From contig NZ_CP127385.1 of the NCBI RefSeq assembly GCF_030378205.1, positions 4,628,001 to 4,692,000 on the forward strand: DNA of 64,000 nucleotides. Direction: 5' to 3'. Source of the DNA: Bradyrhizobium sp. NP1 (GTDB lineage Bacteria; Pseudomonadota; Alphaproteobacteria; Rhizobiales; Xanthobacteraceae). A program made the translations under genes and the position numbers. Shown in pieces: positions 38,208-57,696 of the stretch (position 1 is the stretch's first letter; each line of letters begins with the position of its first letter). Below the pieces are notes generated by a model. That model was given only the letters and a program-made list of their open reading frames with translations. It did no database searches and had not been told where the DNA came from.

Positions 38208-38279
38208 TCTTCTCCTTTCAGATCAGCTCCCTTCAGATCAGAGATTTTCGCGACCAGTGTGCCGCGCACAAACCCCGCA

Positions 38280-39395: not shown

Positions 39396-39444
39396 GATTT
39401 CAATCCTCGTTGTCTAGTAAGTGTTTGTCGCGCGTGAGGACGGG

Positions 39445-40386: not shown

Positions 40387-40398
40387 TGCACCCCTCCC

Positions 40399-41223
40399 TC
40401 AGCGTTCGGCGACGAAGAACTCGGCCAGAGATCCCGCGACCGCCTTGGGATTGTTCTCCATCGGAATGTGTCCGGCCGACTTGATCCGGACGAGCCGCGT
40501 TTCTGGGATCTCCCGTGCGTAGCGTTCGGCATAGTCGATGGTCTGAAACGGGTCGTCCTCGCCCCACACCAAGAGCTTTGACTTCCTGGACTGCAGTAAT
40601 GCCGGCAGCATCTCCATGGTGTAGCGATGGTCGGCAGCGCCCGCGAGCGCCAGCCAGGATCGGGCGACCCGTGGATCCGTCCAAGGATCGAGATACTCCG
40701 CGATCTCGGCCTCGCTGGCCGGTCGTCCGAGCGCCTTCACGACCGATACGCGACGCGCAGCCAGAATATCGTCGCGCGTCGTTGCCGCAGCGACCGCCGG
40801 ATCCCGGAAGCGGGCAACGCCTGGCACCGGCCACGAGTCGTACATGATTCCGTTCACGACCGCCACGCGCGGCACCTTCACCTCCTTTGCGAGCATAAGA
40901 TGCTGCGCAACGCCTCCACCGATGTCGTGGCCGGCCACCATAACAGGGCCCTTATGCCCGAGCGCCTGGAGGAAACGTATCAGCCAAGCCGAGAGACGCG
41001 GCACCGAAGCCTCGCTAATAGTGAGTTCACCTCCGGATCGGCCGAAGCCGGGGAAATCGACCGCCACTGGGCGGAGACCGGCGGAAGCGATGCCCTCGAG
41101 CACAGGCTGCCAGACGCGGCTCCAATAGGTTCCGTGAAGCAGGAGAACCAAGGGTCCGCCTTTGCCGGCGGTCAGATAGCTGATCGGCACGCCATCCACA
41201 TCGACAGTCTCTCGCCTCGTCAT
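40399..41223 (-). CDS. Alpha/beta hydrolase with an Asp nucleophile elbow
   Basis: A 274-residue alpha/beta hydrolase. HGTYWSRVW at residue 30 is the oxyanion strand and MVAGHDIGGG places an Asp (residue 100) at the nucleophile position, as in haloalkane dehalogenases, haloacetate dehalogenases and epoxide hydrolases. The C-terminal His is in SAGHIPMENNP. Its stop region overlaps the cupin gene by four bases (41220-41223), indicating translational coupling. The Asp nucleophile argues against a simple esterase. Confidence 0.9.
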   Translation of the reverse strand: MTRRETVDVDGVPISYLTAGKGGPLVLLLHGTYWSRVWQPVLEGIASAGLRPVAVDFPGFGRSGGELTISEASVPRLSAWLIRFLQALGHKGPVMVAGHDIGGGVAQHLMLAKEVKVPRVAVVNGIMYDSWPVPGVARFRDPAVAAATTRDDILAARRVSVVKALGRPASEAEIAEYLDPWTDPRVARSWLALAGAADHRYTMEMLPALLQSRKSKLLVWGEDDPFQTIDYAERYAREIPETRLVRIKSAGHIPMENNPKAVAGSLAEFFVAER

Positions 41224-41780
41224 CGCACGATCCTCTTCACATGGTCCTTGCCGAGCCCGACGGCTTCGTAGTGCTGCATGGCGTGTTCGAGCTTGGTGAA
41301 GACATCTTCGTATCCGAGCGCCTCGCCGTAAGGATCGACGTACGTGTACCCGCCCGTCACGTGGAAAAGCGTGGCCATCTCCTTGACGTCATCGGGAACA
41401 ACAAGCGTGTGCGTCTCGCCGGGCGGCTCGAACGCATAGTCCCCAGGGGACGCGACCCAGTCGTGCTCGAGGTACCGCCAGCTTCCTCGCAACGTGAAGG
41501 CATGCACCGGTCCGGAATGCCGGTGGCGCGACAACACGCCCGAGGATCGGACTCGAAGGATGTTGATGTAGTAGCCTTGGCTCACATTGAGCACGAGCGG
41601 CCTGAAGGCGACGGTCGGCGATTGCGGGACCCATTCCCGCTCGTCCCCGTTAAGCTCCAGCGCAGAGCCGATGAATACATCCGGCACCATGCCAATGGGC
41701 TGCGGTTTCTGGTAAGCGATCTTCCTTTGATCGATGGACCTGCTTTCGGACGCCTGCATGTTTTCCGACGAGGACTTCAT
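41220..41780 (-). CDS. Cupin protein of the 2,4'-dihydroxyacetophenone dioxygenase family
   Basis: A 186-residue single-domain cupin. SRHRHSGPVHAFTLRG contributes metal-ligand His residues and SPGDYAFEPPGETHTLVVPDD the second cupin motif with His. Strand and length match 2,4'-dihydroxyacetophenone dioxygenases, which cleave aryl ketone C-C bonds using a non-haem iron. The neighbours (hydrolase, 2-hydroxyacid dehydrogenase) fit processing of the resulting acids. Many members have unknown substrates, so the exact substrate is an inference. Confidence 0.85.
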   Translation of the reverse strand: MKSSSENMQASESRSIDQRKIAYQKPQPIGMVPDVFIGSALELNGDEREWVPQSPTVAFRPLVLNVSQGYYINILRVRSSGVLSRHRHSGPVHAFTLRGSWRYLEHDWVASPGDYAFEPPGETHTLVVPDDVKEMATLFHVTGGYTYVDPYGEALGYEDVFTKLEHAMQHYEAVGLGKDHVKRIVR

Positions 41781-41824
41781 CGCTGTTCTCCTTCCATCGC
41801 GTGAAACGAGGTTCTATCCCTCCG

Positions 41825-42529
41825 TCAGGCCACCGACGCCCTGCTCGCTGTTTGCCCGAAAAGGATCTTCTTTCCCTCTTCCGTAACCGCAGGGCGGCTC
41901 GAGTATGGTTCGCCTTTCGCGTAGGCCCGTTGCGTGCCGGGGCGCTGGCGCACCGCATGGAACCAGCGCCCCAGGTTCGGGAAGTCGTCCAGATTCTGCT
42001 GCTGGCGCTTCCAGGGCACGACCCAGGGATATGAAGCCATGTCGGCGATGCTGTAGGTGTCGCCGACGATGAACGCGCGGTTTTCGAGGTGCCGATCGAG
42101 CACGCCGTAAAGACGGTTCGTCTCCTTGACGTAGCGGTCGATCGCGTAGGGGATCTTGGTCGGCGCGTAGACTCCGAAATGGTGGTTCTGACCGGCCATC
42201 GGCCCAAGGCCACCGACCTGCCAAAACAACCATTCCGTCGCGGTCTTGCGGCCACGCACGTCCTTGGGCAGGAAGCGGCCGGTCTTCTCAGCTAGGTACA
42301 GCAGAACGGCCCCCGACTCGAATACGCTGATTACCTCGCCACGGTCGGCAGGCGCGGTATCGATGATCGCCGGCATGCGGTTGTTCGGCGAGATCGCGAG
42401 AAATTCGGGCTTGAACTGATCGCCGGCGCTGATGTCGACCGGATGGATCGCGTACTCTAGCCCGGCTTCTTCCAGGAACATCGTGATCTTGTGGCCGTTC
42501 GGCGTGGGCCAGTAGTAGAGCTCGATCAT
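41825..42529 (-). CDS. Glutathione S-transferase, YfcG/YghU-like
   Basis: From ATG 42529 (234 residues). The N-terminal thioredoxin-like domain starts MIELYYWPTPNGHKITMFLEEAG, with Thr/Asn at the glutathione site instead of Tyr or Ser, as in the disulfide-bond oxidoreductases YfcG and YghU. NRMPAIID supplies the cis-Pro and FESGAVLLYLAEKTG the glutathione Glu-Ser pair. The C-terminal helical domain is complete. It could protect against or use thiol adducts of the operon's electrophilic intermediates. Confidence 0.92.
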   Translation of the reverse strand: MIELYYWPTPNGHKITMFLEEAGLEYAIHPVDISAGDQFKPEFLAISPNNRMPAIIDTAPADRGEVISVFESGAVLLYLAEKTGRFLPKDVRGRKTATEWLFWQVGGLGPMAGQNHHFGVYAPTKIPYAIDRYVKETNRLYGVLDRHLENRAFIVGDTYSIADMASYPWVVPWKRQQQNLDDFPNLGRWFHAVRQRPGTQRAYAKGEPYSSRPAVTEEGKKILFGQTASRASVA

Positions 42530-42598
42530 CTCCGGTCTCCTTGTGCGCCAGGTGCAAAGGCTGCCCCCGCGCAATAGCGAGGGCAGCCTTCGGTGTCG

Positions 42599-43174
42599 TC
42601 AGGCGGCCGGCTTCAGTTTGCCGGGCGCATTCCACTCGGCGCCCTTCATGAACGAATCGTTCGGGGTCTCGGCGAGATGATTGGTGTAGTTGGAGATGAG
42701 CTTGGTCGCGGCGAGGACGAGCACGTCCAGCACCGACTGATTGTCGTAGCCCGCGGCCTTGAAGGCGGCGACGTCGGCCTGGCTCACGACGCCGCGCTGC
42801 CGGGTGACCTTGGTCGCGAACTGGCGCAAGGCCTCGAGCTTCGCGTCGGCGATGGGGCGGCCCTCGCGGACGGCGGAGATCGCCTCCGGCTCTACCTTGG
42901 CCATGCGCGACAGATTGGTGTGACCGGCCATGCAATAAGTGCACTCGTTCTCGTAGATGATAGCGAGATAGACGATGTTGCGCTCTTGCGGGGTGAAACT
43001 CGTCTTTTCGGCGATCCCCCAAAGGGTGCTGTAGGCCTCAAGTGCTGCCGGACTTTGTGCGAGGACGCGGTGCAGGTTGGGCACGAAACCCCAAGACTTC
43101 TGAACGCCGTTGAGGATTTCAGTGGAAGCCGCCGGCGCGGTGTTCGTGTCGTGAAGCGTGAAGCCGTTGATCAT
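42599..43174 (-). CDS. Carboxymuconolactone decarboxylase/AhpD-family protein
   Basis: From ATG 43174 with GGGAGAG upstream (191 residues). The AhpD core motif is C78-TY-C81-MAGH85, the same residue numbers as the paralogue at 57113. This catalytic CxxC-xxx-H arrangement is typical of AhpD-like peroxidase or disulfide-reducing members. It is the first gene of the seven-gene operon, 69 bases before the GST. Its promoter region carries an exact ATTCC-N5-GGAAT box at 43264. Confidence 0.92.
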   Translation of the reverse strand: MINGFTLHDTNTAPAASTEILNGVQKSWGFVPNLHRVLAQSPAALEAYSTLWGIAEKTSFTPQERNIVYLAIIYENECTYCMAGHTNLSRMAKVEPEAISAVREGRPIADAKLEALRQFATKVTRQRGVVSQADVAAFKAAGYDNQSVLDVLVLAATKLISNYTNHLAETPNDSFMKGAEWNAPGKLKPAA

Positions 43175-43559
43175 TTTTCTCTCCCTTCTCGAGGTCACAA
43201 CGTGGGACCGCACCCTCACCCATTCCTCGGCGCTGCGGCAGACGCGATCTGGCGATATTATTTATTCCGATGGGGAATGGGTCTCCTTCTGCAAATGAGC
43301 CATCAATTCCCTTGAGCAGCGGCGATGGGCCGCGGAGCGCTCCCGAGACGTCCTCCCGATTGCTCTCCGTTCCTCTCCTTGCGCGGAGTGTCTAGCTTCG
43401 TCCGCTCCCTCTTCGGATCGCGTGGCGAAAATGGAAAAGCGCTGACGCTAACGTCGCGCGACTTCTTGTCGGAGGCGAGTTAAACGTTCTAAGATTTTGT
43501 AAATCGTGACGGGCGAGCAAACATTGCTGGAAATTGGGGAACCCGACGGCTGGTGAACG
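43175..43559. other. Intergenic region upstream of the AhpD/GST/cupin operon
   Basis: No gene is supported in these 385 bases. It contains the ATTCC-N5-GGAAT box at 43264 and TTGTAAATCG at 43497-43506, a 10-mer repeated at 44029. Confidence 0.5.
43264..43278. promoter_or_regulatory. ATTCC-N5-GGAAT box upstream of the AhpD/GST/cupin operon
   Basis: ATTCC GATGG GGAAT, a perfect 5-base inverted repeat with a 5-base spacer, 90 bases upstream of the operon's first ATG. It contains T-N11-A, the core of LysR-type boxes. It is one of three exact copies in promoter regions of the window (also 47219 and 53915). Confidence 0.6.
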
Positions 43560-43943
43560 TCAGATATCGTGACGATTGCGCAGAATGATCAATTGGACGA
43601 TGAGTTCGTTGTGGGGCGTGAAGTAAAAGGCCAGGGCAAGAGGGTCCGGCAAGCCGCGCTTGTCGAAGTTTCCATCAACATTGGCAGTGACAATGAAATT
43701 GCCGTAGTGACTCACAACTTTTGTAACCGCGATCGATAATTTCTCGCCGATGATGTCCCGCTCCGCCCAGTTCCTAACGGCCGTCTCACCCCAGTAGTCG
43801 CGCAGTTGATCGTTGACGAGCGCGTCATGGGCAAATGTGGCCATCAACCGATCCAGATCGAAGCTATTCGCAGCCCCCACAAACTCCGAAATTAGGGGTG
43901 GAAGCGTAGTCGGTCCATTCGTCGAAGAACGGGGGCTTGGCAT
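43560..43943 (-). CDS. SnoaL/NTF2-like protein
   Basis: A 127-residue NTF2-fold protein: SEFVGAANSFDLDRLMATFAHDALVNDQLRDYWGETAVRNWAERDI is the classical helix-strand opening, followed by sheet strands ending ELIVQLIILRNRHDI. Family members are small polyketide cyclases, isomerases or ligand-binding proteins. It stands alone between the operon and the large regulator, bracketed by two copies of TTGTAAATCG (43497 and 44029). Function unknown. Confidence 0.85.
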   Translation of the reverse strand: MPSPRSSTNGPTTLPPLISEFVGAANSFDLDRLMATFAHDALVNDQLRDYWGETAVRNWAERDIIGEKLSIAVTKVVSHYGNFIVTANVDGNFDKRGLPDPLALAFYFTPHNELIVQLIILRNRHDI

Positions 43944-44093
43944 ATGAATCAGCGACCGTCGGGATTGACATCATTCCCAACAACATGCCCCAGTTGCCGA
44001 ACCTTTGCTCATTGTATGATGTAAAAACTTGTAAATCGGACCCTTACACCTGTAGGTCTCTGCTTAACCTACGCAAGCTGCATCGATTTAGGG

Positions 44094-46943
44094 CTATGCC
44101 GTTATGATCGCATGCGCCAATTTTAGATCCGCAGTATCGAAACCTTCCGTAAATCGGTCGTACACACCAGCCACGCATTGACGCGCTTCCGCACCCTCGC
44201 CTCCGTCCTGAAAAAGACGTGCGAGTGTCATGGCGGATCTGAGCTCAAGACTGAGCGCATGTTGAGTCTGAGCTTTAGCAATCGACTCCCTCACACATGT
44301 CGTCGCCGCAAGGTGGTCCTTTCGCGCTGCGAAGATTTGCCCTTTGATGCGCAACAATTCGGGCAAGTCAAATTCGGCGCCCGTTTCGATCGATCGAGAA
44401 ATTGCACTATTCACCGTGAAGAGCGCGTCTTCCAACTCCCCCACCTTTAGAAGGCCGCCTGCGAGCGCCCCCATGAGGGTGCCGCGAACCACATTGTACT
44501 GCTCAACCTGCATGATTTCCAAAGCCTCCCTCAATGACTTTATTCCCGCCCGCACCTCATCGCTCGCGACCTGCAGTTCGCCCTTCAGCCCAATCCCCGC
44601 GGCACGATAGGGTCCCAACGAGTGTCGTCCGGCAAACCCGATCAACTGCTCGACCAATTTCCAAGTTCTAGAGAAATCACCTGTCCAGAACATCACCGAA
44701 CCGCCATAGAGAAGTGAGGTGCAAACAGAGACTGGATGATTTCGACCGCAGCTCATTTCTTCAATCGCCTTCAGCGCAGTTCCTGTTGCCCGGTCGGGAA
44801 ACCCGCGCAGCCACAGAACTCGAGCAAGAGCCACGATAGCTCCTATTCGATTGACAGTTCCGAAGTAGTTGGCGTGATGCGAGCCGAGTTCGGCTGCAAG
44901 CGACATTCCTCTTTCGAGATGGGACTGCGCCGCGGCTTGATCTCCACTCACGTGGTGCGAGACACCTATCATCCACTCGGCCCAGATGAGGCCCGCAGGG
45001 TCTGAAATTGCCTGTGCTACGCTCCTTCCACGCTCGACAGCCGCCCTGGCGCCCTGAAGGTCACCTTTTCGGACGAGAAGGAGATTCAAGCTTGCGAGGA
45101 GTTGCAATTGGCGGGGCCTGTCCTCGAGCGCTTCGGCCAGCGCGAGCCCGCGATCGATCGCGGCGCGAACCGTGCCGTGGTTCCCACGGGTGTACATCGA
45201 CGCCAGCGCCAGCGACTCCTGGAGAATCATCTCCGTTCTCGAGCAATCGCCGGTATCGTTGATAATGGCCAGGGCCCTTTCGCAGAAGCGCCTGCACTCT
45301 TCCAACAGAGATAGGCCGAGCAGAAGCGGCGCCGCCTGCGCAACAAGAGCCACTCCAAAGGCCGAATCGCGGCGATCGGACAGGGCCCACTCCAGCGCCG
45401 CACGCACGTTGCTGACGTGTGGTGCGTATACGGATAGATCGTGCTTACCTATCCTTGAGCGGAGGATCTCGTCGCTTTGGAGAAACTTGAAATAGAATTC
45501 CGCGTGAAGTCGGGCAACGTGAGCGACTTCCCCTCGTTCGTCGAGTTTTGCTCTGGCATATGCGCGTGTCGTGTCGAGCAGCCGGTGGAGTACGGACCCG
45601 ACCACCTGAGTGGTCGATAGCAGCGACTTCTCAAGTAGGCTTTGGATGGTCTCCGCAACGCGCGCCTCATCCAGGTCTGTTCCCGACGCAACAGCGCAGG
45701 CTGCCTCAATCGTGAAATCTCCCGCGAAGACCGAGAGCCGCCGAAAGACAGCCTTTTCGTGATCGGGAAGGAGGTTGTAACTCCAATCGAGCATCGCGTT
45801 CAGCGTCTGATGTCGAGGGAGCGCGGTTCGGCGTCCATGCCAAAGCATACTGAAGCGATTGTCGAGCAATTCCGCGATTCCACGAATCCCGAGAGAGCCT
45901 GCGCGACCGCCGGCGAGTTCGATGGCGAGGGCGATCCCATCGAGCCGACGACAGATCATTGCGACGGTCGGTGCGTCTACGTCGCTCAACGCTGCGCGAT
46001 AGCCACTCGCTATAGCCCGTTCCATGAAAAGTTGAGCTGCCGGAAATCTCAGCACTTCCGCGGCAGTGAGATCGGCATTCTCCGCGGGCGGACAATCGAG
46101 TGAATACAACAAATGGACGCGTTCACCCTCAACGCGCAGCGCTTCGCGGCTGGTCGCCAGGATATGCGCTTGTGGTGCTTCGCCGACGACCCGTTCAGCC
46201 AATTTCGCCGCCGCATCGATCACGTGCTCGCAGTTGTCGAGAACGAGGAGGATCTTCCTGTCGCCCAGGAACGCCACAAGGCTGCCGTAGGGATCGTGAG
46301 CCTGGATCATGAAGCCGAGTGCCGAGGCGACTGCGGCTGGAACGAGCTGGGCATTCGTCAACGCGCTCAGATCGACAAAGGAAACGGCACCACTGAAACC
46401 GCTCAACAATGCGTGCGCCACCGAAATGGCCACGGTGGTCTTGCCTATGCCGCCTGGACCGACGATGCTCACGAAACGGTCCGTGACGAGCTGCTCCGAT
46501 ACGGCTCGAACAGCTTCATCTCGACCGACCATCCGCGCCAACGGCGGCGGCAGTTTTCTGGGCTGCTCGCCGTCCGGAGATCCTCCCGCAACGGTCAGCT
46601 GCTCCGTCGAACACGACACGGGCGCGACAAAACAATAGCCGCGACCGGCAACGTTCGATATGTAGCGAGCCCCCTCCTCTCCGCCGAGCGCTTTCCGCAA
46701 GGTGGCAATTTGAACGCGGAGATTGGCCTCATCCACTGTCACATTTGACCACGCGAGCGAGATCAGTTCGCTGTAGCTGACGACCTGGCCCGCCCGTTCC
46801 ATCAGGGCGATCAGGACGTCGAGGGCGCGTCCGCCAAGCGGTATCGTCTCGTCAGCCCTCTTAAGCAGCCTGCCCGCCACGGACAGACTGAACGGACCAA
46901 AGGAAAACACGTCACCGGGCTGGATGTTGCGACGAGCGTTCAT
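44094..46943 (-). CDS. Large winged-helix, P-loop NTPase and TPR transcriptional regulator
   Basis: From ATG 46943 (949 residues). Residues 1-108 form an OmpR-type winged-helix domain (RALDVLIALMERAGQVVSYSEL, RYISNVAGRGYCFVAP). A STAND-type ATPase follows, with Walker A GPGGIGKTT near residue 160, Walker B KILLVLDNCEHV near 230, and ILATSREALRVEGE. The remaining half is helical repeats of TPR character. This architecture resembles signal-transducing activators such as MalT/AfsR relatives. It lies between two catabolic operons. The ligand and DNA targets are unknown. It is divergent from the thiolase operon. Confidence 0.92.
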   Translation of the reverse strand: MNARRNIQPGDVFSFGPFSLSVAGRLLKRADETIPLGGRALDVLIALMERAGQVVSYSELISLAWSNVTVDEANLRVQIATLRKALGGEEGARYISNVAGRGYCFVAPVSCSTEQLTVAGGSPDGEQPRKLPPPLARMVGRDEAVRAVSEQLVTDRFVSIVGPGGIGKTTVAISVAHALLSGFSGAVSFVDLSALTNAQLVPAAVASALGFMIQAHDPYGSLVAFLGDRKILLVLDNCEHVIDAAAKLAERVVGEAPQAHILATSREALRVEGERVHLLYSLDCPPAENADLTAAEVLRFPAAQLFMERAIASGYRAALSDVDAPTVAMICRRLDGIALAIELAGGRAGSLGIRGIAELLDNRFSMLWHGRRTALPRHQTLNAMLDWSYNLLPDHEKAVFRRLSVFAGDFTIEAACAVASGTDLDEARVAETIQSLLEKSLLSTTQVVGSVLHRLLDTTRAYARAKLDERGEVAHVARLHAEFYFKFLQSDEILRSRIGKHDLSVYAPHVSNVRAALEWALSDRRDSAFGVALVAQAAPLLLGLSLLEECRRFCERALAIINDTGDCSRTEMILQESLALASMYTRGNHGTVRAAIDRGLALAEALEDRPRQLQLLASLNLLLVRKGDLQGARAAVERGRSVAQAISDPAGLIWAEWMIGVSHHVSGDQAAAQSHLERGMSLAAELGSHHANYFGTVNRIGAIVALARVLWLRGFPDRATGTALKAIEEMSCGRNHPVSVCTSLLYGGSVMFWTGDFSRTWKLVEQLIGFAGRHSLGPYRAAGIGLKGELQVASDEVRAGIKSLREALEIMQVEQYNVVRGTLMGALAGGLLKVGELEDALFTVNSAISRSIETGAEFDLPELLRIKGQIFAARKDHLAATTCVRESIAKAQTQHALSLELRSAMTLARLFQDGGEGAEARQCVAGVYDRFTEGFDTADLKLAHAIITA

Positions 46944-47331
46944 ACAAGCATTCCGCGGTGTTAGCTCGCTATCGCGGCTCTCTTTGCGCAAGGCAACTGC
47001 CCGCGCCGGACCCGCCGTATTCTAGCGCGCGTTCCCTCCCTTGGGCGACTCGGCCGCCAGCGCGTCCACTCATCGGAGCGTCTGTCGAATACGGCCGAAA
47101 TTGCAGTACAAACAAGGAGGTACAGCATACGCCGACGGTGCGAGGTCGACAAGTTTGGAGCCTGGCGACGCACGATTTCGATGAGAAAAGGCGCTCTCTG
47201 GGAAGCGCGCATCGTATATTCCTAGCAGGAATAGACGTTATTGCGATAAGCGCTCTGCCGAGATCGTCGCCGGCGCCGCAATTTGGTCGGCACGCGTTCC
47301 CTGCGCGTCATCTCGGCGGAGGCCTTTTTTC
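46944..47331. other. Divergent promoter region between the large regulator and the thiolase operon
   Basis: No gene is supported in 388 bases. A second ATTCC-N5-GGAAT box lies at 47219. An AGGAGG sequence near 47116 is followed by no useful reading frame. GGAGG at 47318-47322 serves the thiolase ATG. Confidence 0.5.
47219..47233. promoter_or_regulatory. ATTCC-N5-GGAAT box upstream of the thiolase operon
   Basis: ATTCC TAGCA GGAAT, extended to TATTCC...GGAATA, about 98 bases upstream of the thiolase start. It matches the boxes at 43264 and 53915 in both half-sites and spacer length. Confidence 0.6.
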
Positions 47332-48522
47332 ATGACATCGAAGCACTCGGTAGTGATCGTTGAGCCGGTTCGAACGGCCATCGGAACATTCGGCGGCACC
47401 TTGAAGGATATTCCGGCCGTCGAACTGGGCGCGGCGGCCATCAATGCCGCTCTTCAGCGTTCCAACCTGCGGCCTGACGAGATAGGCACGGTCGTCATGG
47501 GAAACACGGTGCAGGCCGGCAACAAGATGAATCCCGCGCGCCAGGCCGCGATCCACGGGGGACTTCCGGTGCAGGTACCTGCCATGACGGTGAATCGCGT
47601 CTGCGGCTCCGGCGCGCAGGCAATCGTTTCCGCGGCACACGAAATCCTGATGGGTTCGGTGGATGCAGCCATCGCCGGCGGCATGGAGAACATGGACGCA
47701 GCTCCGTACCTGGTCGCGCACGGCCGATGGGGCCACCGCTTGGGGGACGGCTCCATCTACGACAGCGTGTTGCGCGACGGCCTCAACGATGCCTTCTCAG
47801 ACGCGCACTCGGGCTGGCACACGGAAGACCTGGTCACAAAGTTTCAGATCAGCCGCGCGCAGCAAGACGAATGGGCCTTGCGTTCTCACAGGCGCTTCTC
47901 TGCAGCGCAGAGCGCCGGTAAATTCGACGGCGAGATCGTGCCCGTCGAAGTTCGCGTGCGAAAGGGACCGAGCACGTTCCGGGTCGACGAGCATAACCGT
48001 CCGGACGCGACGATCGAGGCGCTGGCCAAGCTGAAGCCGGCTTTCCGCGATGGCGGTACGATCACCGCCGGCAATGCGCCGGGCTTGAATACGGCCGCTG
48101 CGGCGATGGTGCTGGCAGGAGAGGATTGGGCGGACAAACGCGGTCTGACGCCGATTGCCCGACTGGTGTCGTACGGCATCGCTGCGGTGGAACCGGGTAT
48201 GTTCGGGCTCGGCCCGATCCCCGCCGTCAGACAGGCGCTGGCGCGCGCAGGCTGGAGCAATGATGACGTCGAGCGCTTCGAGATCAACGAAGCGTTTGGC
48301 GCCATAGCGCTTGCAGTCATGCAGGAGCTCAAGCTGCCGCCCGAGATCGTGAACGTCGAGGGTGGCGCCATCGCGCACGGGCATCCGATCGGTGCGACCG
48401 GCGCTGTGCTGACGACCCGCCTCCTCCATTCGATGCGTCGGGACGGTCTCAAGAAAGGTATCGTCACGATGTGCATCGGCGGTGGCCAGGGGATCGCTCT
48501 GGCCCTCGAGATGATCGCTTGA
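47332..48522 (+). CDS. Acetyl-CoA C-acyltransferase (thiolase)
   Basis: A 396-residue complete thiolase. TVNRVCGSGAQAIVSAAHEI carries the acyl-accepting Cys, FEINEAFGAIALAV the NEAF motif, GGAIAHGHPIGATGAV the His motif and TMCIGGGQGIALA the second Cys. It cleaves 3-ketoacyl-CoA or condenses acetyl-CoA. It opens the plus-strand operon with the beta-propeller, dehalogenase-like and unknown genes. Length and motifs are normal and it should be active. Confidence 0.95.
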   Translation: MTSKHSVVIVEPVRTAIGTFGGTLKDIPAVELGAAAINAALQRSNLRPDEIGTVVMGNTVQAGNKMNPARQAAIHGGLPVQVPAMTVNRVCGSGAQAIVSAAHEILMGSVDAAIAGGMENMDAAPYLVAHGRWGHRLGDGSIYDSVLRDGLNDAFSDAHSGWHTEDLVTKFQISRAQQDEWALRSHRRFSAAQSAGKFDGEIVPVEVRVRKGPSTFRVDEHNRPDATIEALAKLKPAFRDGGTITAGNAPGLNTAAAAMVLAGEDWADKRGLTPIARLVSYGIAAVEPGMFGLGPIPAVRQALARAGWSNDDVERFEINEAFGAIALAVMQELKLPPEIVNVEGGAIAHGHPIGATGAVLTTRLLHSMRRDGLKKGIVTMCIGGGQGIALALEMIA

Positions 48523-48543
48523 GGATAAGCACAGGAGGCTTCG

Positions 48544-49371
48544 ATGGTCCTTCTTGTGACGAGCGCCTCGGGCGCGAATGGCCCGGGTTACGGCAAGCTC
48601 CTGGCATTCGATCCGGACGGCGAGTTGCTTGGCCCGTTCAGTGAGGACGCCCGGATCATCGACCCGCGCGGACTCGGCGTCGACGGTTCGCTGCTCTTCC
48701 TCAATAGCGGCGCAAACCGCATTCTGGCGCTCGATGGCAAAGGCCGTGTGGTGCGCGAGACGGGCGCGATACCCGGACTGAACCCAGGCGGCGGCAATTT
48801 CGGACCCGACGGCCGGTATTATGTCGGATTGCGCGCTGCGCGGACGATCATGGCCTTTACCCCCACTCTCGATGGAGCCGGCGAAGCTGTGCTTCCGAGC
48901 GCGGTGGTCCCATTCCCACGCGGATTTGCCTTCGGGCAGGATGGCACTCTCTTTCTCGCGTCCGGTATCGGCCCGGGCGGCGAAGGCGACAACACGATTC
49001 TGGCGTTCGATCCGGCGCGAACGGTCAAGTCTTCCTGGAAGGTCCAAGATCCGGATCTCGGCCCTCTCGACCTTACGATCGCACCGAACGGAAACGTGGT
49101 CGTCAGCAGCGAACATCCCTTCGGTGCTCCGGACTCGGCGACGACCATCCGCGAATATGACCGATCCGACGGCCGTCTCGTTCGCGTCCTGACTCCGGAT
49201 CGTGGGATCGGATTCCGGAAACCCCGCGGGCTACGCTTCGGGCTGGACGGAAAGCTGTATTGCGTCGCCCAGGATGAAGTCGTCGCGTTCGATTTCGCGA
49301 CCGGCAAATCCCTGGGCCCGGTCGTTAGACTACCAGGTCTCAACGGCCAGGCCGTGATCTTCTTTGGATAG
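48544..49371 (+). CDS. Beta-propeller protein, SMP-30/NHL-like
   Basis: A 275-residue protein made of repeated beta-blade units (KLLAFDPDGELLGPF, NRILALDGKGRVVRETG, NTILAFDPARTVKSS, PRGLRFGLDGKLYCV). No signal peptide is present, so it is cytoplasmic. Some relatives are lactonases or gluconolactonases that use a calcium ion, but their acidic ligands cannot be assigned with certainty here. It sits 21 bases after the thiolase and 11 bases before the hydrolase, so co-expression is likely. Confidence 0.82.
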   Translation: MVLLVTSASGANGPGYGKLLAFDPDGELLGPFSEDARIIDPRGLGVDGSLLFLNSGANRILALDGKGRVVRETGAIPGLNPGGGNFGPDGRYYVGLRAARTIMAFTPTLDGAGEAVLPSAVVPFPRGFAFGQDGTLFLASGIGPGGEGDNTILAFDPARTVKSSWKVQDPDLGPLDLTIAPNGNVVVSSEHPFGAPDSATTIREYDRSDGRLVRVLTPDRGIGFRKPRGLRFGLDGKLYCVAQDEVVAFDFATGKSLGPVVRLPGLNGQAVIFFG

Positions 49372-49382
49372 GGAGGAAAGGA

Positions 49383-50306
49383 ATGCAGACATCGGGAGAA
49401 GAGCATCGGTTCGCGCACGGCCAATGGCCGTACGAGCCGAGATTCAAGCAAGTCAACGGCTGGCGCATGCACTACGTCGACGAGGGCATCGGCGATCCGG
49501 TCGTTCTCCTGCACGGCAATCCGGCTTGGGGATTTCTGTACCGGAAATTTATCAAACCGCTGACTGCGGCGGGTAGGCGCGTGATCGTGCCGGACATGGT
49601 CGGCTTCGGGCTGTCCGAGAAGCCCACCCGCGAACAGGCCCACACGCTCGACGGCCACATCGCCAATCTAACCGGCCTCCTGCGACAGCTCGACGTGCGC
49701 AACGCGACCATCGTCTGTCACGATTGGGGCGGCCCCACTGGCCTCGGGTTCGCCCTGTCCAGTCCGGACCGCGTCCGCGCTCTGGTCATCATGAGCACCT
49801 GGGCCTGGCCGCTGCCTCCGGCCGAGTTCCACAAGCGGATTTTCCCATGGCGCATGATGCATGCGCCCCTCGTCGGACCCTATCTTCTCGGACGTCACAA
49901 CGCGCTTGCAGGTCGCGGAATGTATCTTTCCGTGGTCGACCGCAAGAAGTTCAGGGCGGAGGCCCAGAGCGTCTATGAGAACATCCTGCCAGATCCCGCA
50001 TCGCGTCTACTCACATGGACCTGGCCGCGCTGGATCCCGCTCGACAAAAGCGCGCGCGCCTTGGCCCGCTTCGAATGGCTCGAACGCGAGCTGAAGAAGT
50101 CGAAATTTCCGACGCTGCTGGTCTGGGGGCGGGAAGACGAGGTCTTCGACCACAAGACGTTCGCAACACGCTTCAAAGAGCTTTTGCCGCACGCCGAGGG
50201 ACCCGAGCTGGTGACGGGCCGGCATTTTCTGCAGGAGGACTCAGGCGAGGAGATCGCCGGCAAGATCAACCGTTTCCTGGACCGTATCGAGGGAAGGCAG
50301 TCATGA
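49383..50306 (+). CDS. Haloalkane-dehalogenase-like alpha/beta hydrolase
   Basis: A 307-residue alpha/beta hydrolase. HGNPAW (residues 44-49) matches the halide-binding Asn and oxyanion region of haloalkane dehalogenases; CHDWGGPTG puts an Asp nucleophile at 114 with Trp next to it, and GRHFLQEDSG carries the catalytic His near 281. It could hydrolyse halides or act on an epoxide or ester, since the same motifs occur in related hydrolases. It is in the thiolase operon and overlaps the next gene by ATGA. Confidence 0.9.
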   Translation: MQTSGEEHRFAHGQWPYEPRFKQVNGWRMHYVDEGIGDPVVLLHGNPAWGFLYRKFIKPLTAAGRRVIVPDMVGFGLSEKPTREQAHTLDGHIANLTGLLRQLDVRNATIVCHDWGGPTGLGFALSSPDRVRALVIMSTWAWPLPPAEFHKRIFPWRMMHAPLVGPYLLGRHNALAGRGMYLSVVDRKKFRAEAQSVYENILPDPASRLLTWTWPRWIPLDKSARALARFEWLERELKKSKFPTLLVWGREDEVFDHKTFATRFKELLPHAEGPELVTGRHFLQEDSGEEIAGKINRFLDRIEGRQS

Positions 50307-50704
50307 CACCTATTCAAGTCATCGAAAATCCGACGCTCGAAGGCAAGAGGAGAGCGTTCGTGCTCGCGGAAGACCGCGTCGGACACTACCCGGAATTCCG
50401 CGAATTCTTCGTCAAGCAGTTCTCTCTGGAGACGAACGCCCTATCGCGCCCCGGCTACGTGCGGGCGCCCTCGGGAATGGTCTACGCGCTCGTCTTCATC
50501 GGCCGCAGCGGGGAACCATTTCCCGACGGGATCGAGATCTACGCCCTGCCCGACGCGTTGGAGCCGTTGAACGATCCGGAGATCGACGCCGATCTTTGGG
50601 CGCTGCTCAGGTGGATGATGGCCGGCGTCGGCGGCGACTGGCGCGTGGAGGACCTGGATGCGACCGGGCGGCTATACCAGTTGAGCGTGGCCGCAAGCGC
50701 GTGA
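50303..50704 (+). CDS. Protein of unknown function in the thiolase operon
   Basis: A 133-residue protein from ATG 50303, overlapping the dehalogenase-like stop by four bases; GGGAAGG precedes it. Mixed sheet and helix without a recognised motif (VYALVFIGRSGEPFPDGIEIYALPDALEPLN, WALLRWMMAGVGGDWRVEDLD). The end points toward the convergent patatin gene with 14 bases between stops. Its tight coupling to the hydrolase suggests an accessory role. Function unknown. Confidence 0.75.
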   Translation: MTPIQVIENPTLEGKRRAFVLAEDRVGHYPEFREFFVKQFSLETNALSRPGYVRAPSGMVYALVFIGRSGEPFPDGIEIYALPDALEPLNDPEIDADLWALLRWMMAGVGGDWRVEDLDATGRLYQLSVAASA

Positions 50705-50718
50705 TGGCTCGTGGTCGC

Positions 50719-51891
50719 TCATTCGGCGACGAGCGCTGTCAGGTCCTTGGCTTCGTGAAGGATAACACCCGACAGTGGGTCGAAATGGTCCGTCCAGGGC
50801 TTACGCGCGAGCACGGCTTTGGTGTGCGTATAGCCTGCTTCCCAACGCTGCTCGATTGCGGTCTGGCTGAAATCGATGTCCTTGGTGTGATCTTCATACT
50901 CCAACTGCGGCGCGAGCAATTGGACCACATGCATTCGGGTCTGGCAGCCATAGCCCAGCAATTCCCTGACCTCCGGGTTGCTGCGCTCGCTTTCGGGCAG
51001 CCGCGATGCGAGTTCGTTGATGACGTGACGCAACCGATGCGTCTGCCGGTGGCGCGCGATCTGACTCGCAATGCGGCTCGAATACTGGACGTCCTTGTGG
51101 CGGTTGAGAACATCGGCCATCGTCATCGGCTCGGGTCCCACCGAATTCCACAAATGGACGGAGAAGATCACCGAGTCCCTTCTCGGATTGTCATCGAACA
51201 CCGCCTCGGTGGGTGTATTGGAAAGGATGCCGCCGTCCCAGTAGAGTTCGCCGTCGATACGCACGGGCGGAAAGGCAGGCGGAAGAGCCCCAGAAGCCAT
51301 GATATGCCTCACGTCGAGCCTGCCATCGCGGCTGTCGAAATTGCGCATCCGGCTGGTTCGCACATGCGCCGCGCCCACAGTCAGGCGCGGCCTTCCCTGA
51401 TTGATCAGGTCGAAGTTCACCAGCTCGGCGAGAGTGTGTTCGAGCGGCGCCGTCGAGTAGTAGCCGGCGTGGTCGGCGCCCAGCGGAAAGGCGTCTCCGG
51501 CATGGGCAAGCGGGTTCGGCGTGAAAAATCCGGGGATGCCCTGGGTCAGCGTGCTCCAGTGCGACCAGCGTCCGTCCAGTCCAGGGAAAGCGCCCTCAAA
51601 GCCCCAATGCGGGACGCGCTGCACGCGGCTCCAGAACGCATGCAGCCGCTCCAGCCGGCGCTGCGGCTCGTTTCCGGCAATCAGACTTGCGTTGATGGCG
51701 CCGATCGAGGTGCCGATGATCCAGTCCGGCTCGATTCCGACTTCCTGCAGCCCTTGATAGACACCGGCCTGATAGGATCCCAGTGCGCCGCCGCCTTGCA
51801 GAACGAGCACCACCTGTCCCGGGAGGTCAGCGCGATCCGCCCGGCGCTGCGAACGATCCGCGGCTTCAGGCCGTTCAGTCGGTCGGTTCAT
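50719..51891 (-). CDS. Patatin-like phospholipase
   Basis: A 390-residue patatin family protein. The glycine-rich oxyanion loop GGGALGSYQAGVYQGL (residues 33-48), the nucleophile GTSIG with Ser62, and the catalytic Asp in YWDGGILSNTP are all present. A C-terminal helical extension follows. Patatins hydrolyse acyl esters of membrane or granule lipids. It lies between the catabolic operon and a small membrane protein gene on the same strand and could release fatty acids for the acyl-CoA enzymes nearby. Confidence 0.93.
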   Translation of the reverse strand: MNRPTERPEAADRSQRRADRADLPGQVVLVLQGGGALGSYQAGVYQGLQEVGIEPDWIIGTSIGAINASLIAGNEPQRRLERLHAFWSRVQRVPHWGFEGAFPGLDGRWSHWSTLTQGIPGFFTPNPLAHAGDAFPLGADHAGYYSTAPLEHTLAELVNFDLINQGRPRLTVGAAHVRTSRMRNFDSRDGRLDVRHIMASGALPPAFPPVRIDGELYWDGGILSNTPTEAVFDDNPRRDSVIFSVHLWNSVGPEPMTMADVLNRHKDVQYSSRIASQIARHRQTHRLRHVINELASRLPESERSNPEVRELLGYGCQTRMHVVQLLAPQLEYEDHTKDIDFSQTAIEQRWEAGYTHTKAVLARKPWTDHFDPLSGVILHEAKDLTALVAE

Positions 51892-51993
51892 GCGGGCCCT
51901 CCTACTTTCAAGTAACTCTTCGCCGATTCAAGGCCGGAACGGCGTTCTGTCGATCTGTCCACCGGCCACCACGATGGTCGATATCGGTACGTC

Positions 51994-52227
51994 CTAGCCG
52001 CGTCCGTGGGCGGCGCAGCGAAGCAACATCTCGAGATGGGGCGCGACGAGGATGGCCAGGCTCGCCACCGCACTGCCCGTCATCGCATAGGCGAACAAGG
52101 CATCCCTTGCCGTCGCTCTCAGGATCGGAACCGCTTCGCTTGGGACCGCCTTCGCGCGGATCGAACGGATCCGGTCGGCGCCGGCGGCCCGGACGAGGCT
52201 CGCGATCGGGTGTTCGTTCGTGCCCAT
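51994..52227 (-). CDS. Small protein with one hydrophobic segment
   Basis: A 77-residue protein from ATG 52227, which follows AAGGAGAG closely. MGTNEHPIASLVRAAGADRIRSIRAK is polar; ATARDALFAYAMTGSAVASLAIL is a membrane-like stretch. It is divergent from the LysR gene. Function unknown. It could be co-transcribed with the patatin downstream (103-base gap). Confidence 0.65.
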   Translation of the reverse strand: MGTNEHPIASLVRAAGADRIRSIRAKAVPSEAVPILRATARDALFAYAMTGSAVASLAILVAPHLEMLLRCAAHGRG

Positions 52228-52285
52228 TGCGTCTCTCCTTTGCGTGGAGAGTGGCCAGTTCTTTTCAGTCATGGCAGACAGGACG

Positions 52286-52299
52286 GAGCGATATCGCTC
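52286..52299. promoter_or_regulatory. Perfect 14-base palindrome between the small protein and the LysR gene
   Basis: GAGCGATATCGCTC is self-complementary without a spacer. It lies in the 90-base divergent gap immediately upstream of the degenerate ATTCC box, so it is well placed to act as a regulatory site. Confidence 0.5.
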
Positions 52300-52314
52300 A
52301 TTCCTGCGGAGAAT
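52300..52314. promoter_or_regulatory. Degenerate ATTCC-N5-AGAAT box at the LysR start
   Basis: ATTCC TGCGG AGAAT differs from the consensus by one base in the second half-site. It overlaps the ribosome-binding site of the LysR gene, a position that suits negative autoregulation. Confidence 0.4.
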
Positions 52315-52317
52315 AGG

Positions 52318-53199
52318 ATGGATCGTCTAGCTTCAATGGAGACGTTCGTGCGGGTCGTTGAAACGGGCTCCTTCTCCGGAGCGGCCCGACAGCTTCGGGT
52401 GGGGCAGCCAGCCGTCTCCAAATCGGTCGCCCAACTGGAGGAATACCTCGGGGTCAAGCTGCTGACGCGTTCGACGCGCGGCCTCACCCCGACGGAAGCC
52501 GGGCTCGGTTATCTCGAGCGCGCCAGGCGGGCTCTCGAGGAAGCGGCCGAGGCCGAGCTCGCCGCACGCGGAGCCGGAGCAGGTCTTAAAGGACGATTGC
52601 GCGTCTGCGCCGCCGTCACGTTCGCACGCATCCATCTCATTCCGATGTTGCCGCAGTTCATGGCTCAGCATCCCGAATTGGATCTCGAGGTGGTCCTGGA
52701 CGACCGTCAGATCGACCTCGTCCAGGAGGGCATCGATGTGGCGCTCCGGATGGGAAAGATGATGGATTCGACACTGACCGTTCGCCGCGTCGCAAGGTGC
52801 AAGCGGCTCGTCCTCGGGACGCCCACCTACTTCGATCGGGCGGGCATACCCTCGACTCCGAGCGAGCTGAGCAAGCACCAGGCCGTGGTCTATCTGCAGG
52901 GAGAAGGCAGTGTGTGGTCCTTCAGGCGCGAAAGCACGGAATTGTCCGTTAACGTTCAAAGCAGATTGCGGGTGACCGCCGCGGAAGGCGTAAGAGCCGC
53001 AGTGCTCTCTCATGCAGGCCTAACCATCGCGTCGGAGTGGATGTTCAGTCCGGAACTGCAATCGGGCGCCGTTCGCACCGTCCTATCCGAATGGAGTCTC
53101 CCGCCGCTCGACCTGTGGGCGGTGCTTCCGACCGGCCGTGCGGCGACAGCCAAGGCGCGAGCCTTCGTCGGGTTCTTCGAACGTTCGTTCAACGCCTAA
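52318..53199 (+). CDS. LysR-family transcriptional regulator
   Basis: A 293-residue LysR protein from ATG 52318. The winged helix-turn-helix occupies about residues 3-60 (METFVRVVETGSFSGAARQLRVGQPAVSKSVAQLEEYLGVKLLTRSTRG). The co-inducer domain follows with normal length. CrgA-type LysR proteins bind dyads with a T-N11-A core. A candidate site lies on its own start and exact copies lie upstream of three other units (43264, 47219, 53915), so this protein is a strong candidate regulator of them. Confidence 0.93.
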   Translation: MDRLASMETFVRVVETGSFSGAARQLRVGQPAVSKSVAQLEEYLGVKLLTRSTRGLTPTEAGLGYLERARRALEEAAEAELAARGAGAGLKGRLRVCAAVTFARIHLIPMLPQFMAQHPELDLEVVLDDRQIDLVQEGIDVALRMGKMMDSTLTVRRVARCKRLVLGTPTYFDRAGIPSTPSELSKHQAVVYLQGEGSVWSFRRESTELSVNVQSRLRVTAAEGVRAAVLSHAGLTIASEWMFSPELQSGAVRTVLSEWSLPPLDLWAVLPTGRAATAKARAFVGFFERSFNA

Positions 53200-53581
53200 G
53201 TTCGGAGAAGATCGGACCCTACTGCCGCTCGCGAGGCGGTTCGGTCTCGGCGGTCGCCGGAATGGTTCTCGTCGATGCTGGCGGGGCATGAGGCGGAGAT
53301 CCCGGTCAACCACGGAGGCTTCGTCGGGCAAGATCTCGGAAGTGCCCATATGACCGTTCTCTCCGACGAGAGCGCGATCTAGCCGTCCCGCATCACGTCA
53401 GACGACCGCAAGCGCTCGGCGACCGCGCAGCGTGCGACCGCAGCCATGGGGCGCATCTCGGGAGTTCGTGAGACGAACAAGCATGTCTTCGAGCCCCACC
53501 GACATTCAACATCTCAAGCAGATCAGTACGGTGACACGCATGGAGTTGCTCATCTCGAGCCTCCTGCAAAGGAGTGTCATC
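53200..53581. other. Intergenic region with one short open stretch
   Basis: No full gene. Bases 53275-53382 contain a 35-codon frame (MLAGHEAEIPVNHGGFVGQD, then LGSAHMTVLSDESAI and TAG) of protein-like composition without a ribosome-binding site, perhaps a gene remnant. AAAGGAG before 53582 belongs to the next gene. Confidence 0.4.
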
Positions 53582-53899
53582 ATGTCCCGCACCTCGACCT
53601 TGAAGCGCTCACTCAGCGCAGCCGCTGCCGTGGCCGTCTTTGTCGCTCTGCTGTCGCCGGCGAACGCAACCGACCGGCAAGATACGGCTGCTGTTTACCC
53701 CGATGTGTCGATCAGGGCCGCCACGGATCGTGCGCCGATCGTGTTGACCTCACGCTTGCCCTGGCTTGCTCCGGTCGGCCATCGGCAGCCCCGCCAGGCA
53801 GACGTCCCCCGTCATGAAGCCGTCTCAACATGGGAACGCCAGCAACAGCAGGTGGACCAGGAGTTGGACCGCAAGCTGATCATCTGCCGTGGCTGCTGA
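53582..53899 (+). CDS. Small secreted protein with C-terminal CxxC
   Basis: A 105-residue protein from ATG 53582, preceded by AAAGGAG. Residues 8-32 form a signal peptide (LSAAAAVAVFVALLSPANA). The mature chain is Pro/Arg/Gln-rich and ends in ICRGC, a CxxC pair that could be redox active or bind metal. Its start context is nearly identical to that of the AhpD-like gene at 57113. It starts the redox cluster. Function unknown. Confidence 0.7.
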   Translation: MSRTSTLKRSLSAAAAVAVFVALLSPANATDRQDTAAVYPDVSIRAATDRAPIVLTSRLPWLAPVGHRQPRQADVPRHEAVSTWERQQQQVDQELDRKLIICRGC

Positions 53900-53914
53900 G
53901 ATTGGGCGGTTCTC

Positions 53915-53929
53915 ATTCCGGGCCGGAAT
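53915..53929. promoter_or_regulatory. ATTCC-N5-GGAAT box upstream of the peroxiredoxin gene
   Basis: ATTCC GGGCC GGAAT is the third exact copy, 120 bases before the peroxiredoxin ATG and 16 bases after the preceding stop. Both half-sites and the spacer length match the boxes at 43264 and 47219. Confidence 0.6.
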
Positions 53930-54048
53930 AAGCGCTAGTCCGTCGTGCCCGCTACCTCATACGGCGGCCTCCTTTAGCTTTCTGCACGTGAGTTCAACCA
54001 AACGGGCGGCGCCGCCGTCCTCCACGCCGACGCCAACGGAGAACCGTC

Positions 54049-54723
54049 ATGTCGCTTCAAGCCAAGCTCGATGCCTTCAAAGCCGATTTCGAGGCTGGAA
54101 AGCCGCCCTATAGCGTTCCTCGCTCCGTCATCGAGACGATGCACCGCGCCACCGCAGAACTGATCGAATCGGGCGCGGCCAAGCGCGCCAAGAAGGCCGG
54201 CGACCTCGCTCCAACCTTCTCGCTCAAGGATCCGGAGGGCAATGTCGTGAGCTCGGCCGACCTGCTGAAGCGCGGCCCGCTGATGCTCAGCTTCTACCGC
54301 GGTGTCTGGTGCCCCTACTGCAACATGGAGCTGCAGGCGCTCGAAGCCGCCAAGCCGGAGTTCGACAAGTACGGCGCTTCGCTCGTCGCGATCTCGCCGC
54401 AGACCGCTCCGAACAGCCGCAAGTCGGTGCGCCAGAACAAGCTGTCCTTTCCAATCCTGTCGGACGCGAAGGGCAAGGTCGGCGCCGCGTTCGGCCTGCG
54501 CTTCAACCTGCCCGACTATCTGGTCGAGCTCTACAAGCAGCTCAAGAACGATCTGCCGACGTTCAACGACGACCCGAGTTGGACCCTGCCAATGCCGGCC
54601 CGCTACGTCATCGGACAGGACGGCGTCATCCTCTATTCCGAAGTGAACCCCGACTACACCCGCCGGCCGGAGCCTGAAGACATGGTCCCGGTCCTCCAGC
54701 GGGCGGCGGCCGTCAAGGTGTGA
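54049..54723 (+). CDS. Peroxiredoxin-like (AhpC/TSA family) protein
   Basis: A 224-residue thioredoxin-fold protein. GVWCPYCNMELQALE gives C88 and C91, the redox pair, after an N-terminal helical segment of about 45 residues. DLAPTFSLKDPEGNVVSS is the usual AhpC/TSA opening. It probably reduces peroxides or quinones with a thiol donor. It precedes the Old Yellow Enzyme by 79 bases on the same strand and carries the ATTCC-N5-GGAAT box upstream. Confidence 0.92.
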   Translation: MSLQAKLDAFKADFEAGKPPYSVPRSVIETMHRATAELIESGAAKRAKKAGDLAPTFSLKDPEGNVVSSADLLKRGPLMLSFYRGVWCPYCNMELQALEAAKPEFDKYGASLVAISPQTAPNSRKSVRQNKLSFPILSDAKGKVGAAFGLRFNLPDYLVELYKQLKNDLPTFNDDPSWTLPMPARYVIGQDGVILYSEVNPDYTRRPEPEDMVPVLQRAAAVKV

Positions 54724-54802
54724 CGGCACATGAGGCGGCCGGTGGGGCGCAATGACCACCGGCCGCTGTCCTTCCACTCAAGCACCCGAAAGGAATGTAC
54801 CC

Positions 54803-55906
54803 GTGGCCAAGCTCTTCACCCCGACCCAGGTCGGCCCCTATCGTTTGTCCCATCGCGTCGCCATGGCGCCGTTGACGCGGATGCGCTCCGACCCCGGCGA
54901 CATCCCGAGCGAGCTGATGGTCGAATACTACAAGCAGCGCACGACCAAGGACGGCCTGATCATCTCCGAAGCGTCGCCGGTCTCGATCCGCGGCAACGGT
55001 TATGCCGGTGCGCCCGGCATCTACTCGGACACTCAGATCGCGGGATGGCAGCGCGTCACCGAGACGGTCCACGCCAGGGGCGGCCGCATCTTCCAGCAGT
55101 TGTGGCACGTCGGCCGGCAGTCGCATGTCGACCTGCAGCCGAACGGGGACGCGCCGGTCGCGCCCTCCGCCATCGCGGCCGAGGGCCACGCGTACTCCAC
55201 GCGCGGCGAGGTCCCGTTCTCGATGCCGCGCGCACTCGCGCTGCATGAGATCCCCGCCATCATCGAGGAGTTTCGGTCGGGCGCCGAGCGGGCGCTGCGG
55301 GCGGGCTTCGACGGCGTCGAAATCCATGGCGCGAACGGCTACCTGCCCGACCAGTTCCTGCAGGACGGAACGAACAAGAGGACTGACGAATACGGCGGCC
55401 CCATCGAAAACCGCGCCCGCTTCATGCTGGAGGTGACGCAGGCCGCCATCTCGGTCTGGGGAGCCGATCGCGTCGGCGTGCGCATCGCACCGAGCGGCAC
55501 CTACGGATCCATGTCGGACAGCGATCCGGCGGCGACCTTCGGCTACGTGACGACGCAGCTTGACCGCCTGGGCATCGCCTACCTCCACGTCGTCGAGCCG
55601 CGCATCAAGGGCACCGAGGAGCTCTCGCATGGCCGGGCGCCGATCGCCGCTCAGCATCTGCGGCCGAAGTTCTCGCGAACTTTGATCGCGGCTGGCGGCT
55701 TCACCCCGGCTTCCGCGGAAGCCATCGTCACCTTCGGCGACGCCGACCTCGTCGCCTTCGGTCGCCATTTCATCTCGAATCCGGATCTGCCGGAGCGGAT
55801 CCGCCAGGGCTTGCCGCTCACCCGTTACGACCGGTCGACCTTCTACGGCGGCGACGCGCGCGGCTACACCGACTACCCGACCGCAGAGGCGGCGGCAGCA
55901 GCCTGA
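54803..55906 (+). CDS. Old Yellow Enzyme-family alkene reductase (NemA-like), GTG start
   Basis: I choose GTG 54803 with AAAGGA upstream (367 residues), starting AKLFTPTQVGPYRLSHRVAMAPLTR. HGANGYLPDQFLQDGTNKRTDEYGG holds the substrate His175, Asn178 and Tyr180 of OYE enzymes. The FMN regions are normal. NemA-type enzymes reduce N-ethylmaleimide, nitro compounds and unsaturated carbonyls with NADPH, a typical electrophile defence. It is downstream of the peroxiredoxin and convergent with the RclR-like regulator. Confidence 0.94.
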   Translation: MAKLFTPTQVGPYRLSHRVAMAPLTRMRSDPGDIPSELMVEYYKQRTTKDGLIISEASPVSIRGNGYAGAPGIYSDTQIAGWQRVTETVHARGGRIFQQLWHVGRQSHVDLQPNGDAPVAPSAIAAEGHAYSTRGEVPFSMPRALALHEIPAIIEEFRSGAERALRAGFDGVEIHGANGYLPDQFLQDGTNKRTDEYGGPIENRARFMLEVTQAAISVWGADRVGVRIAPSGTYGSMSDSDPAATFGYVTTQLDRLGIAYLHVVEPRIKGTEELSHGRAPIAAQHLRPKFSRTLIAAGGFTPASAEAIVTFGDADLVAFGRHFISNPDLPERIRQGLPLTRYDRSTFYGGDARGYTDYPTAEAAAAA

Positions 55907-56979: not shown

Positions 56980-57112
56980 GGCGACCTCCCGAACGGACGA
57001 AGGGATTGAGACGATAGAGCATATAGTCGAGTATTCGCGACATTCAAAGTCTCGCCCACTGCTCATACTGTCACTCCGCAATCGTTCACCATCCCAACAA
57101 AGGAGTGCCATC

Positions 57113-57649: not shown

Positions 57650-57696
57650 GGCGACCGTGCGATCCGTCAGATCTCAAACATGAAAGGATCACGACC

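Follow-up and report, generated by a model that had tools for sequence, protein, structure and literature searches.

The window, by which we mean the whole 64-kb stretch of the Bradyrhizobium sp. NP1 genome (one contig, 7.71 Mb) that was analysed, carries the gene of a LysR-type regulator whose two domains both score over the Pfam cut-offs (PF00126, 80.5 bits; PF03466, 135.8 bits), together with four predicted operators and the gene groups that they face (Table 1). The genes of target unit 1 are separated by gaps of -4 to 72 bp in the list of open reading frames, and the sequence gives the ATG at 43174-43172, after AAGGGAGAG, as the probable start of AhpD. The small gene next to the regulator is listed as an open reading frame spanning 51994-52272, and its probable start is at 52227, after AAAGGAGAG. 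The terms 'aryl-ketone-like catabolism' and 'dehalogenation', which a sequence-only reading of this DNA had attached to these units, are best taken as labels from protein families.

Table 1. Predicted operators, target units and the LysR-type regulator (positions within the window; mismatches counted against the 42-bp element described in the text)
Feature	Position	Strand	Dyad	Element mismatches	Content or direction
Target unit 1	37455..43174	-			AhpD-like, GST, cupin, alpha/beta hydrolase, D-2-hydroxyacid dehydrogenase, NAD-epimerase-like, SDR
Operator 1	43237..43278	-	exact, 43264-43278	0	toward AhpD operon; dyad + TATCGC + TCTGCC
Operator 2	47218..47259	+	exact, 47218-47232	0	toward thiolase operon
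Target unit 2	47332..50704	+			BktB-like thiolase, SMP-like protein, haloalkane-dehalogenase-like hydrolase, small protein
Possible target unit 3	50719..52227	-			small protein (77 aa), patatin-like gene (50719-51891, Pfam)
Operator 3	52273..52314	-	variant, 52300-52314 (ATTCT arm)	1	dyad + TATCGC + TCTGCC
LysR-type regulator	52318..53199	+			293 aa; Pfam HTH_1 + LysR_substrate
Operator 4	53915..53956	+	exact, 53915-53929	0	toward peroxiredoxin
Target unit 4	54049..55906	+			AhpC/TSA-type peroxiredoxin, old yellow enzyme (OYE; N-ethylmaleimide-reductase-like)

Three further features lie among these units. A 965-aa winged-helix/NB-ARC/TPR (STAND) regulator (44094-46991) is encoded between units 1 and 2, and among the compared loci it had a 65% relative in L049 only, plus a weak match in L048. 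A small open reading frame of about 105 aa (53584-53899) between LysR and the peroxiredoxin gene is 49-67% alike in several loci and unmatched in others. Downstream, at 55990-58203, an AraC-type regulator with a Cupin_6 domain is grouped with a second AhpD-like gene and a DUF417 gene, a set that resembles the reactive-chlorine (Rcl) set. This group is close to LysR in many loci, and no box was found within 400 bp of those of its genes whose 5' ends were compared.

The dyad ATTCC-N5-GGAAT occurs exactly three times in the window and once as the variant ATTCCTGCGGAGAAT at 52300-52314; all four copies proposed by the sequence-only reading are present, except that the second begins at 47218 rather than 47219. 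The three exact copies compare with a mean of 0.08 in shuffled sequence, close to the 0.06 estimated earlier, and no shuffle in 100 gave three or more. The bare dyad at up to two mismatches is not enriched in the window (21 observed, 24.45 expected), and an additional one-mismatch copy at 48912, within a coding open reading frame, lacks the longer element described below. As a look-elsewhere control, every 5-base dyad with a spacer of 0-20 was searched for at least three copies inside 11 kb, in the window and in 12 simulations. Eight such dyad types were found in the window and 4-19 in the simulations, so that three clustered copies of one dyad or another are nothing unusual. ATTCC-N5-GGAAT is the sole clustered type with two or fewer G/C per arm, and no type of this composition clustered in any of the 12 simulations. 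T2 and A14 of its 15 bases lie 11 bases apart, and the T-N11-A core thus fits LysR proteins as had been claimed.

Across the genome the exact dyad occurs at only seven places in 7.71 Mb, three of them in the window, and the check for many genome-wide copies therefore did not tell against the proposal. Two of the others are at a LysR paralogue (1827230) and upstream of a pair of SDR genes (5368185), and the remaining two, 259608 and 448873, both lack the longer element. At up to one mismatch the count rises to 152 places, as against 26 for a reversed-pattern control, which makes the bare dyad a poor detector. The idea that the bare dyad is the entire signal was rejected, because two of its seven exact genomic copies are without the longer element, two-mismatch copies are at chance level, and exact dyads also occur in same-genus genomes that lack this LysR.

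Each of the four window boxes begins a longer, oriented element of 42 bp, ATTCC-N5-GGAAT-N6-TAnnnC-N10-CTrCC. At up to three mismatches this element has four copies in the window, precisely at the four boxes, where 0.04 would be expected. The alignment, anchored on the dyad, comprised 87 sites of nine gene classes, and additional conserved columns were seen on the gene side only, which read TA(t)..C over positions 22-27 and CTrCC over positions 38-42. The mean information over positions 16-42 was 0.76 bits, as compared to 0.20 and 0.21 in the flanks. Eight of the 87 sites had been found by the element pattern itself, five AhpD sites had been re-picked and 24 LysR sites were read in reverse; when the pattern-found, re-picked AhpD and LysR sites were left out (51 sites, seven classes) the values were 0.81 against 0.24 and 0.28 bits, with the same conserved columns. 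The SMP/dehalogenase class deviates at the CTrCC end, with G at position 41 in six of seven sites. In its own genome the element at 0-1 mismatch occupies seven places, and the next four places have three mismatches. Besides the four in the window, two of the seven are at an 88% identical LysR paralogue (genome 1825913) with peroxiredoxin and OYE genes after it, and one is upstream of the SDR pair (5368185), a site that another genome (G259) also has in front of this SDR pair. These comparisons indicate that the working unit of the control site is the 42-bp oriented element; the dyad put forward as the regulon site is only a part of that element.

The copy at the LysR start needs separate description. 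It is present and overlaps the LysR Shine-Dalgarno sequence as the sequence-only reading had stated, yet its orientation is away from LysR and toward the divergent small gene and patatin gene. Operator 3 ends at 52273, ahead of the probable start of the small gene on the minus strand, and the small gene/patatin unit may be driven from it. The changed arm reads AGAAT on the LysR strand, overlying the Shine-Dalgarno GGAG, and it may depart from the consensus because of this overlap. Abutting the LysR start, operator 3 is also well placed for autorepression.

The boxes are kept at orthologous loci, and the second check proposed with the dyad thus did not refute it. The comparison covered 35 records (the window, L048-L059, L063-L082, L089 and L094). 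In all 29 loci where the 5' end of the peroxiredoxin gene was identified, an exact box lies 118-140 bp ahead of the ATG, and these 29 boxes carry 28 different spacers. Of the 33 records with an identified LysR 5' end, 28 have the dyad at up to one mismatch no more than 30 bp from the LysR start, the five misses being L056 (3 mismatches), L059, L068 (2 mismatches), L078 and L079. AhpD orthologues are preceded by an exact dyad in seven loci including the window, and the AhpD-facing site is the ATTCT-arm variant in five more. Operator 2 is exact in L049 and L052 and has one mismatch in L077. In L051, L053, L055, L063 and L071 the exact dyad is accompanied by another at a distance of 70-74 bp. A reading of this other dyad as a weak second site was rejected, for it matches the operator that faces AhpD in a divergent pair.

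The box appears to go with the leading gene of a unit. Where the SMP-like and dehalogenase-like genes lie downstream of the thiolase (the window, L049 and L052), no box was found within 400 bp of them, and a box is present where SMP leads (L053, L065, L071) or where the dehalogenase-like gene leads (L051, L055, L063, L067). The GST gene has its own box in only one of nine loci (L054), SDR in two of four (L067, L080) and the NAD-epimerase-like gene in two of four (L051, L055). The last two boxes qualify the rule, as the gap before them is wider but the order of the genes around them is otherwise conserved. In the genome G027 the patatin and AhpD genes are broken into several frames (L050, 7810-8937 and 19179-19525) and the operators are retained.

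The association of the element with this LysR was examined in 265 same-genus genomes, with the element counted at up to one mismatch and LysR at E <=1e-80. The element was found in 45 genomes and LysR in 48; both occurred in 43, the element only in two, LysR only in five and neither in 215. Thus 43 of the 48 genomes with this LysR have the element, versus 2 of 217 without it. The Fisher p of 2e-41 for this table describes the association and proves nothing, because related genomes are not independent. Both element-only exceptions are decayed loci: in G249, 24 LysR residues are left adjoining a broken peroxiredoxin gene, and in G172 the examined stretch has no LysR and an OYE fragment close to the contig end. 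Among the LysR-only genomes, three (G001, G129, G158) have the element at two mismatches at the LysR start, G066 has it at three, and G090 has a dyad variant with TATCAC. Two of the 48 (G088, G219) hold a sole LysR copy with an internal stop, and in G137 the element and LysR are on separate contigs. Within the genus the recognition helix is of the GQPAVS type in LysRs both with and without the operator, so that it is no guide to which of them have a box.

The alternative that survives best, although we consider it improbable, is that LysR shares the sites with another, unlinked factor recognising the same dyad. Exact dyads number 3-13 per genome in same-genus genomes that lack this LysR, and 16 in G015 (60 relatives scanned); the genomic dyad 448873 recurs with an unchanged spacer in three genomes. 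Against this, the two such dyads inspected, 259608 and 448873, are without the longer element, and it is the longer element that tracks LysR. For the LysR-bearing genomes the exact dyads number 7 in NP1 itself, 9 in G004, 10 in G009, 14 in G031, 17 in G027 and 22 in G025. Two observations are recorded here in their own right. The dyad at 448873 (G000:C1:448873; L061 9874) has the spacer TTGAC and recurs on either strand in G002, G014 and G022, which are without this LysR; the 16 exact dyads of G015, which has no such LysR, may signal another factor with a similar site.

Outside the genus, a survey of 391 genomes of the family found LysR (E <=1e-80) in 26, nine of these in other genera at 59-92% identity, the closest being a 92% identical copy in another genus of the family (G449). 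In named records, from which those of the own genome may be excluded, all relatives of at least 75% identity are from Bradyrhizobium. Of ten other-genus loci inspected, eight carry the element at the LysR start with up to one mismatch; in L134 it has two mismatches, and L140 has a dyad variant with TATCAC. A DNA-first search, in which 397 genomes of the order were scanned by the element alone, returned 14 genomes, 12 of them new. Five of these 12 encode a LysR of 60-64% identity, with six element copies 4-8 bp from its start; the other seven have no such LysR, and their element looks like chance. Near some LysRs of 54-62% identity the element is absent or weak: L078 (a Burkholderiales bin, 60%) and L079 (Variovorax, 54%), both from other orders and without the site, have the differing recognition helices GQSSVSK and GQAIVSK, and the copies in L120, L125 and L126 are 58-62% identical.

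Twenty-four loci with LysRs of 58-65% identity (L112-L126, L133-L138, L140-L142) represent an older arrangement. Seventeen of them have a peroxiredoxin gene (56-81% identity) running divergently from LysR, and GST and SDR often accompany it; in the window this divergent position is taken by the small gene/patatin unit instead. Most of those examined have a single divergent element copy. These loci also bear on a rival that we regard as slightly less probable than a second factor, namely that the AraC-type protein (55990-57135) or the STAND protein binds the boxes instead. Both genes are located among the boxed units, the operator 2 box is situated between the STAND gene and the thiolase, and AraC orthologues occur in many compared loci, but no AraC or STAND relative was matched in the 24 older loci, of which 18 have the element at up to three mismatches at the LysR start and three more have a dyad with TATCAC or a three-mismatch copy, and the symmetric T-N11-A dyad is LysR-like, which argues against AraC or STAND binding. 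Chance clustering of a dyad, to which the triple clusters of 4-19 dyad types in simulated sequence and the lack of enrichment of two-mismatch copies might point, is refuted by the conservation and the co-occurrence with LysR and has next to no probability.

The preferred reading is accordingly that several separate units form a LysR regulon, a proposal of the sequence-only reading that conservation and the co-occurrence of element and LysR strongly support. Common control of the separate gene groups by this LysR is very probably real, and we hold with high confidence that the four boxes are operators of the LysR encoded in the window, with probable activation and autorepression. We infer binding, activation, autorepression, the -35/-10 geometry and an inducer from the sites, their orientation, their conservation and their co-occurrence with LysR. 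In 15 of the older loci CAT or GAT starts at position 62, with CATAAC in several (positions 62-67). This is likely the -10, and the dyad would then be centred near -65, with CTrCC near -35. The -10 candidate is less clear in the window promoters and not visible in each, and A is the commonest base at position 63 in seven of nine classes, the exceptions being peroxiredoxin and SDR. GGAA is found around positions 53-58 in several older sites and in the window AhpD operator. In the latter an extra GGAAT half-site lies at 43222-43226, about 42 bp (four helical turns) past the GGAAT arm, and several older loci (L133-L142) have GGAA at a similar place; this is possibly a -10-side activation site.

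In the mechanism that we propose, the T-N11-A dyad would anchor the LysR protein, and the TAnnnC and CTrCC elements lie on the target-gene side of it. With the dyad near -65 and CTrCC near -35, this spacing makes LysR most likely an activator, which together with an inducer would switch on three units (AhpD, thiolase and peroxiredoxin/OYE), and perhaps the small gene/patatin unit too. Through operator 3, which abuts its own start, LysR most likely represses lysR as well. The oldest part of the response (peroxiredoxin, GST and SDR) probably serves to protect the cell from reactive electrophiles or organic peroxides, and the catabolic operons would have been added to it in Bradyrhizobium. On balance we favour a wider history, in which an old divergent LysR/peroxiredoxin pair (often GST/peroxiredoxin/SDR) exists across several families of the order and Bradyrhizobium copied the 42-bp operator before new catabolic operons, up to 13 copies per genome, building a joint regulon of electrophile/peroxide defence and catabolism whose operator is specific enough for the regulator gene to be found from DNA alone. 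The 48 LysR-bearing genomes of the genus have from none to 13 element copies (0-1 mismatch), as compared to the single divergent copy in most older loci, and this may serve as a case of regulon growth by operator gain.

By sequence, the nearest solved structures are those of the CrgA-like LysR group, PDB 3mz1 (E 1.7e-42) and 3hhg (E 1.4e-36), the latter presumably CrgA itself; this group differs in targets and operator, and it offers no close solved relative of the window LysR. The best named NCBIfam LysR models are YafC, TtdR and AaeR, with YafC on top, and an equivalog identity with any of them was rejected because the scores are far under the curated cut-offs (187.8 of 470, 136.9 of 398 and 123.9 of 425 bits, respectively). 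A previously uncharacterised LysR group thereby gains a defined predicted operator and a predicted gene set. A text search of limited literature found no published record of the dyad, or of ATTC-N7-GAAT with LysR, although other spellings of the dyad would escape it, and in the same limited literature the pairings searched gave no paper joining a Bradyrhizobium LysR with GST, peroxiredoxin, N-ethylmaleimide reductase or old yellow enzyme.

The operator set appears real and is very probably that of this LysR, and its architecture is usual for the LysR type and ordinary in kind. According to PMC8407307, LysR-type regulators recognise a T-N11-A site near -65 and act from sites at -35/-10, the whole covering 50-60 bp, with a divergent target gene and autorepression. 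The window operators have the T-N11-A dyad and a divergent gene, and their predicted promoter position and autorepression would fit this layout; they differ from it in the arms ATTCC/GGAAT and in the fixed TAnnnC and CTrCC elements. Activation of several promoters by one LysR-type protein in multi-operon catabolic systems is reported for ThnR (PMC4834489) and PnpR (PMC5603801). Those systems involve other organisms, targets and sites, whereas the conserved core target here is peroxiredoxin with GST and SDR.
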